NCBI RefSeq assembly: GCF_029582805.1
Contig: NZ_JAKKUT010000008.1
Location: 62,001 to 126,000 of the forward strand
Direction: 5' to 3'
DNA length: 64,000 nt
From: Candidatus Synechococcus calcipolaris G9
Lineage (GTDB): Bacteria > Cyanobacteriota > Cyanobacteriia > Thermosynechococcales > Thermosynechococcaceae
A program made the translations under genes and the position numbers. Each line of letters begins with the position of its first letter. The first letter of the stretch is position 1. The notes under the pieces were generated by a model. That model worked only from the letters and a program-made list of their open reading frames with translations. It searched no databases and was not told where the DNA came from. Shown here one piece after another: positions 48,535-49,298 of the stretch.

Positions 48535-48587
48535 GGCCCAATCCTGGTGGGCTGCTTGGTATTTCGTTGTCATGTGAGGTGTTTTTT

Positions 48588-48824: not shown

Positions 48825-49204
48825 AGATTTTGTTAGATACACACATCTTCTTATGGTTCATCAGCGGTGATACCCAACTATCAACAGATGTTCGGGATGT
48901 CATTCGCGATCCAGACAATGAGGTCTATCTGAGTGCAGTTTCAGTCTGGGAAGCAATTGTCAAATACCAGTTAGGCAAGTTACCCCTGCCGGAACATCCT
49001 GAAACGTATCTACCCAAACAACGAGATTTGCATCAAATTGCCAGTCTTACTCTTGACGAAGGTAGTGTAACTCAACTGGCTAAACTGCCACCATTACATC
49101 GTGACCCGTTTGACCGAATGCTGATTTGTCAAGCTTTACAAAATAGTTTAACAATTGCGACTGTGGATACAGCAGTTCGTACCTATTCAGTCAGCGTTAT
49201 GTAG
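48821..49204 (+). CDS. PIN-domain toxin (VapC-like ribonuclease)
   Basis: The 127-residue protein shows the four acidic positions of the PIN fold: Asp6 in LLDTHIFLW, Glu44 in SVWEAIVK, Asp98 in RDPFDRML and Asp116 in TVDTAV. VapC-type toxins cut tRNA or rRNA to slow growth. It overlaps the antitoxin gene by 4 nt. The stop codon (49202-49204) is only 2 nt before an attC-like palindrome, the geometry of an integron gene cassette. Confidence 0.9.
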   Translation: MKILLDTHIFLWFISGDTQLSTDVRDVIRDPDNEVYLSAVSVWEAIVKYQLGKLPLPEHPETYLPKQRDLHQIASLTLDEGSVTQLAKLPPLHRDPFDRMLICQALQNSLTIATVDTAVRTYSVSVM

Positions 49205-49206
49205 CA

Positions 49207-49298
49207 GCCCAACGCAACAATTCAAATACAGTGGACGGTTGAAAGCCGCTAGTGTTGAATTCAAGGTTATCTGCGGCCGCTGATTTGAGCCGTTAGCT
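49207..49298. other. attC-like recombination site (candidate integron cassette end)
   Basis: GCCCAAC at 49207-49213 fits the R'' consensus RYYYAAC, and GTTAGCT at 49292-49298 is close to R' (GTTRRRY, with one mismatch). The arms fold: 49221-49227 (TTCAAAT) pairs with 49283-49289 (ATTTGAG), then 49229-49234 pairs with 49277-49282, and 49236 with 49276, leaving A49228 and A49235 unpaired. Such extrahelical bases mark attC sites. A variable loop lies between. No integrase gene is present, so this would be an orphan site. It could also be an unrelated imperfect palindrome. Confidence 0.6.

Follow-up and report, generated by a model that had tools for sequence, protein, structure and literature searches.

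A probable single integron cassette with a VapBC-type pair and its own attC site in Candidatus Synechococcus calcipolaris G9

Introduction

Cyanobacteria are already among the published integron-bearing phyla, and a taxon-specific attC model exists for them (Ghaly et al. 2021; PMC8352920). In sedentary chromosomal integrons, toxin-antitoxin (TA) pairs occur as cassettes and are thought to stabilise the arrays. Groups of attC sites without a neighbouring integrase are known as CALIN; by default, IntegronFinder 2 requires at least two attC sites to call one, so lone sites like the one described here go unreported.

We analysed a stretch of 64,000 nucleotides from Candidatus Synechococcus calcipolaris G9 (contig NZ_JAKKUT010000008.1, positions 62,001 to 126,000; hereafter the window), in which a TA pair is followed by a long imperfect palindrome. 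We consider it very likely that this locus is a single integron cassette, composed of a VapBC-type pair and its own attC, that was moved here by IntI either directly or by way of an array since broken, and that is now stranded. Cyanobacterial integrons as such are known: the interest lies in the dispersed pattern of the cassettes and in the decay of the integrase.

Results

A toxin-antitoxin pair and the palindrome behind it

The pair is flanked by a peptidyl-prolyl isomerase gene on one side and an isocitrate/isopropylmalate dehydrogenase gene on the other. It has the composition of a VapBC system, a PIN-domain toxin with an antitoxin gene upstream: the PIN match is above the curated cut-off, whereas the antitoxin matches are weak and all below it (NCBIfam NF050009 VapB, E 4e-5; TIGR01552, E 2e-4; Pfam PF02604, E 8e-4). 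Upstream of the antitoxin ATG, no clear similarity to homologous cassettes was found.

The toxin stop codon, TAG at 49202-49204, is directly followed by an imperfect palindrome at 49205-49298, which inspection of the sequence confirmed as the first-pass annotation had described it. Both adenines that it singled out as unpaired, A49228 and A49235, are indeed extrahelical bases of the L'' arm, and the family alignment likewise leaves the matching columns unpaired. Its assignment of the boxes held in part: GCCCAAC (49207-49213) and GTTAGCT are both present, but the R'' box is ACGCAAC. We rejected GCCCAAC as R'' because it is 5 nt out of register, according to both the covariance model R1 described below and the distance to the toxin stop at 14 homologous loci. 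The R'' box of the window is degenerate and pairs poorly with R'.

The palindrome thus contains the boxes of an attC site in the order R''-L''-L'-R', and the match to R1 spans positions 1-87 of 87. The genes lie directly upstream of it in the same orientation; 7 nt separate the toxin stop from R'', a distance that is similar in 14 other species.

Table 1 Features of the cassette in the window and of the integrase relic elsewhere in the genome
Feature	Position	Strand	Basis
Interval holding the left cassette boundary	48535-48587	+	between peptidyl-prolyl isomerase stop and antitoxin start; boundary placed no finer
Antitoxin gene, Phd/YefM-VapB type, 78 aa	48588-48824	+	weak profile matches, below curated cut-offs
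PIN-domain toxin gene, VapC type, 127 aa	48821-49204	+	Pfam PF01850 PIN, E 2.6e-12, above cut-off
attC site	49212-49298	+	covariance model R1, 81.4 bits, E 1.1e-20; site outside the training set
R'' box, ACGCAAC	49212-49218	+	register from model and homologous loci; alternative GCCCAAC at 49207-49213
L''-side arm, TTCAAAT(A)CAGTGG	49221-49234	+	extrahelical A at 49228, and another directly behind the arm, at 49235
L'-side arm, CCGCTG-ATTTGAG	49277-49289	+	sequence and R1 match
R' box, GTTAGCT	49292-49298	+	cassette boundary expected between G49292 and T49293
intI relic	L015 8234-8674 = G000:C2:1916233-1916673		internal deletion and frameshift

Comparative evidence for an attC site

Thermodynamic folding of the single sequence did no better than shuffled sequence on either strand (z -0.18 and -0.96). 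The window alone is therefore no proof, and comparative evidence is needed. A DNA search of the source genome (3.3 Mb in 8 contigs) identified several other clear copies of the site. From 18 aligned sites of this and related genomes, with the window site left out, we built the covariance model R1; the structure imposed on the alignment comprised R''/R', L''/L' and the stem, with two unpaired bases in the 5' arm. Paired cells amounted to 86.9% in this alignment, against 75.4% when shuffled and 26-50% when slid. Both-sided, compensatory changes were seen in 14 of the 23 pairs, and in 6 of 23 among homologous copies of the TA cassette alone.

The first-pass annotation had called the palindrome attC-like and had named a covariance model as the way to check it. 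Searched with R1, the window gives a single match, on the plus strand at the palindrome (81.4 bits, E about 1e-20), which, together with the 14 covarying pairs, bears out that identity. A scanner of our own, looking for boxes plus arms, had too many chance matches, and the covariance model replaced it. As judged by this comparison of sequences, the PIN toxin gene is followed by a true attC hairpin.

Dispersed sites in the source genome

The further copies that the first-pass annotation had proposed to look for are numerous: R1 finds 38 sites in the source genome at E < 0.002, arranged as six same-strand clusters of 2-6 sites and 20 isolated ones. An ORF stops within 30 nt of R'' at 22 of 40 sites, compared with 17% of random positions, and several genes end on a TAA lying inside R''. 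With its one R1 match, the window is no CALIN, which would take at least two attC inside a few kb and no intI; six other places of the genome do qualify.

A remnant of about 110 bp from an insertion sequence, present in about 20 genome copies, abuts R' at three sites (C2:682610, 680944 and 1918770), cut each time at the identical base and with different DNA beyond; at a fourth (C2:841735), R' is adjoined by the opposite end of the same insertion sequence. The remnant could be an attC-targeting element or a product of recombination. The copies of the insertion sequence were rejected as intragenomic empty sites, since their junctions do not match G^TT. In two pairs of sites, C2:1562635/1734433 and C2:843714/682851, the sequence following R' is shared within the pair (CACCACTCTCCTGTTGAGACGTGG and TACTGCGCTGGGAACC, respectively), as though one downstream unit had become attached at two places.

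A broken integrase gene

No integrase is encoded in the window, as the first-pass annotation had stated; genome-wide the statement fails. A search with TIGR02249, the integron integrase family, uncovered an intI relic (match at C2:1916305-1916550). Its N-terminal 75 residues match an intact cyanobacterial IntI at 73% identity; the sequence then skips about 213 residues to the conserved FDIRTVQELLGHKDVK and departs from the family before the catalytic tyrosine. On its array side, the relic is followed by two genes, one with a TIR domain and one of a family unknown to Pfam, and both have an attC oriented away from intI. These two sites, at C2:1918000 (a weak match) and 1918770, occupy the classical position, and the whole resembles what is left of a classical, ancestral integron. 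A complete integron, with a functional intI by attI and an array, is found neither in the window, which holds no intI, nor in the genome, which holds the relic only. As this broken gene is the sole recognisable integron integrase of the genome, the roughly 38 attC-bearing cassettes would be stranded units that were once mobile.

Integrases and attC sites in relatives

Counting the source genome, intI scores above the curated cut-off in 16 of 58 genomes searched and R1 sites occur in 41 of 57. R1 has no match at E 0.01 in six genomes of a related genus, each complete and in a single contig (G004, G011, G014, G020, G024 and G026); they are a natural negative control for the model.

Nearly all loci that combine an intact intI with a nearby match have their R1 sites on the 5' side of intI, oriented away from the integrase gene: L264, L265, L266, L271, L275, L276 and L087, and less clearly L083 and L263. 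The exception is L083, with one weak match about 7 kb off on the other side of intI. Gene order and site orientation at these intact intI genes indicate the layout of a classical integron. A tandem array on a megaplasmid of Kovacikia minuta packs six R1 sites into about 5 kb; one of the six is 89% identical to the window site. An integron integrase gene is present on a second plasmid of this strain. In phage and viral collections, no carrier was found. In one relative (G018, locus L239, 5033-6736), a single attC follows two genes, one for a DNA methyltransferase and one of 221 aa that has no Pfam match; this unit is perhaps a restriction-modification cassette.

The same cassette in other cyanobacteria

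Homologues of the TA gene pair occur in 55 of 340 cyanobacterial genomes. We read 30 of these loci, 28 of which keep the 3' end of the toxin. Behind the toxin stop, at a near-constant distance, R1 places an attC in 15 of the 28, from 15 species and 10 families, the window included. The sites are of two types, one with GCGTTG (13 loci) and one with TTCAAAT (the window and G333); since both follow the same TA genes, the attC of the cassette appears to have been exchanged.

IntI cleaves R' at G^TT. Over the last 20 nt before R', the mean pairwise identity of the 15 homologous cassettes is 0.81; the three bases of GTT reach 1.00, 0.87 and 1.00, and beyond, positions 7-46 fall to 0.26. Similarity between species hence stops right after GTT and continues at chance level, which is the boundary predicted by IntI cleavage. 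A locus fixed in all relatives with identical flanks, which the first-pass annotation had listed among the outcomes that would speak against a cassette, is not what we see: other species carry the cassette in different neighbourhoods. The toxin keeps 89-93% identity in several other cyanobacterial families, whereas the neighbouring isomerase stays at or below 77% even within the same family, a difference that points to horizontal transfer.

Some copies seem to have lost their hairpin. In L290, L291, L303 and L056, GCCCAAC behind the toxin stop runs straight into TTYACYG, leaving GCCCAACTTYACYG. This junction apparently arose when the hairpin was deleted between two CAAC repeats, one in R'' and one in L', and the resulting sequences are possible scars of cassette fixation. 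Slippage across the hairpin may thus fix cassettes in place.

Discussion

We now propose how the cassette reached its place. An IntI tyrosine recombinase would have moved it by acting on the folded single strand of its attC, and would have inserted it either directly at its present place, as a secondary, attG-type site, or in an array that fell apart afterwards. The cassette would now stay where it is unless an integrase comes from outside; the TA genes probably help it to persist. Recombination of the window attC by IntI is predicted by analogy, the same site family adjoining intact intI in relatives. The first-pass annotation had spoken of an orphan cassette or the trace of an old array: this description is supported, and the evidence fits single insertion as well as array break-up.

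To insertion by IntI as a single unit at a secondary chromosomal site we give an even chance. It agrees with the finding that R' and the sequence beyond it differ in every species bearing the cassette, and integration at non-classical attG sites has a published precedent (Loot et al. 2024, as cited in PMC11023631). Against it, no empty site was found in the relatives, where the flanking gene order is unconserved in all those examined, and the left boundary is bracketed only to the interval in Table 1. The isomerase and dehydrogenase genes were nowhere adjacent in the other loci, many of which came with only about 1.5 kb of flank; the flanks of two single sites in a related genus were likewise non-adjacent in the genomes compared.

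The cassette may also be a true one that was isolated when rearrangement broke an ancestral array, a reading we hold to be plausible though short of even. Gene order around the sites is unconserved between related genomes and six same-strand clusters persist in the source genome, as it would have it; on the other hand, about half of the sites stand alone, with neighbouring genes that differ from site to site, and related genomes repeat the pattern of one cluster plus singles.

That the hairpin belongs instead to a dispersed palindromic repeat foreign to integrons (of the REP, MITE or small-RNA type), lying behind genes by chance, is very improbable. Such a family would account for some 38 dispersed copies, roughly half of them isolated, with well-conserved internal sequence. 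It would not account for R'', L'', L', R' and the two unpaired bases being kept while the arms change in compensation, for interspecies similarity that stops at G^TT and not at symmetric hairpin ends, or for genes that travel along with the hairpin; the copies in classical arrays adjoining intI had already largely refuted it. A rho-independent terminator of the toxin gene, suggested by a hairpin directly past the stop codon, is hardly credible given the lack of a T run beyond it, the long arms with fixed unpaired bases and the membership of the same hairpin family in intI arrays.

With a stranded integron cassette as the preferred reading, we tentatively extend the picture: cyanobacterial cassettes might spread mostly as scattered single units, outlive their integrase and be fixed progressively by loss of the attC hairpin, forming a large pool that default searches miss. 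As the TA cassette is traceable over 10 families, and its gene pair over 55 of the 340 genomes, cassette exchange among cyanobacteria may be undercounted. The source genome offers a system for asking how cassettes disperse and become fixed after the integrase has decayed.

Among known systems, the attC sites of cyanobacterial chromosomal integrons (Ghaly et al. 2021) share phylum and box architecture with the window site, which differs in being isolated, with an integrase that is broken and elsewhere in the genome. CALIN and single-attC elements, as treated by IntegronFinder, resemble it in having attC without a neighbouring integrase; unlike a CALIN, the window has a single site, as do about half of the genome's 38. 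The sedentary chromosomal integron of Vibrio cholerae likewise holds TA pairs as cassettes, whereas the cassette described here lies outside any array, is of the VapBC type and ends in an attC of the cyanobacterial family.
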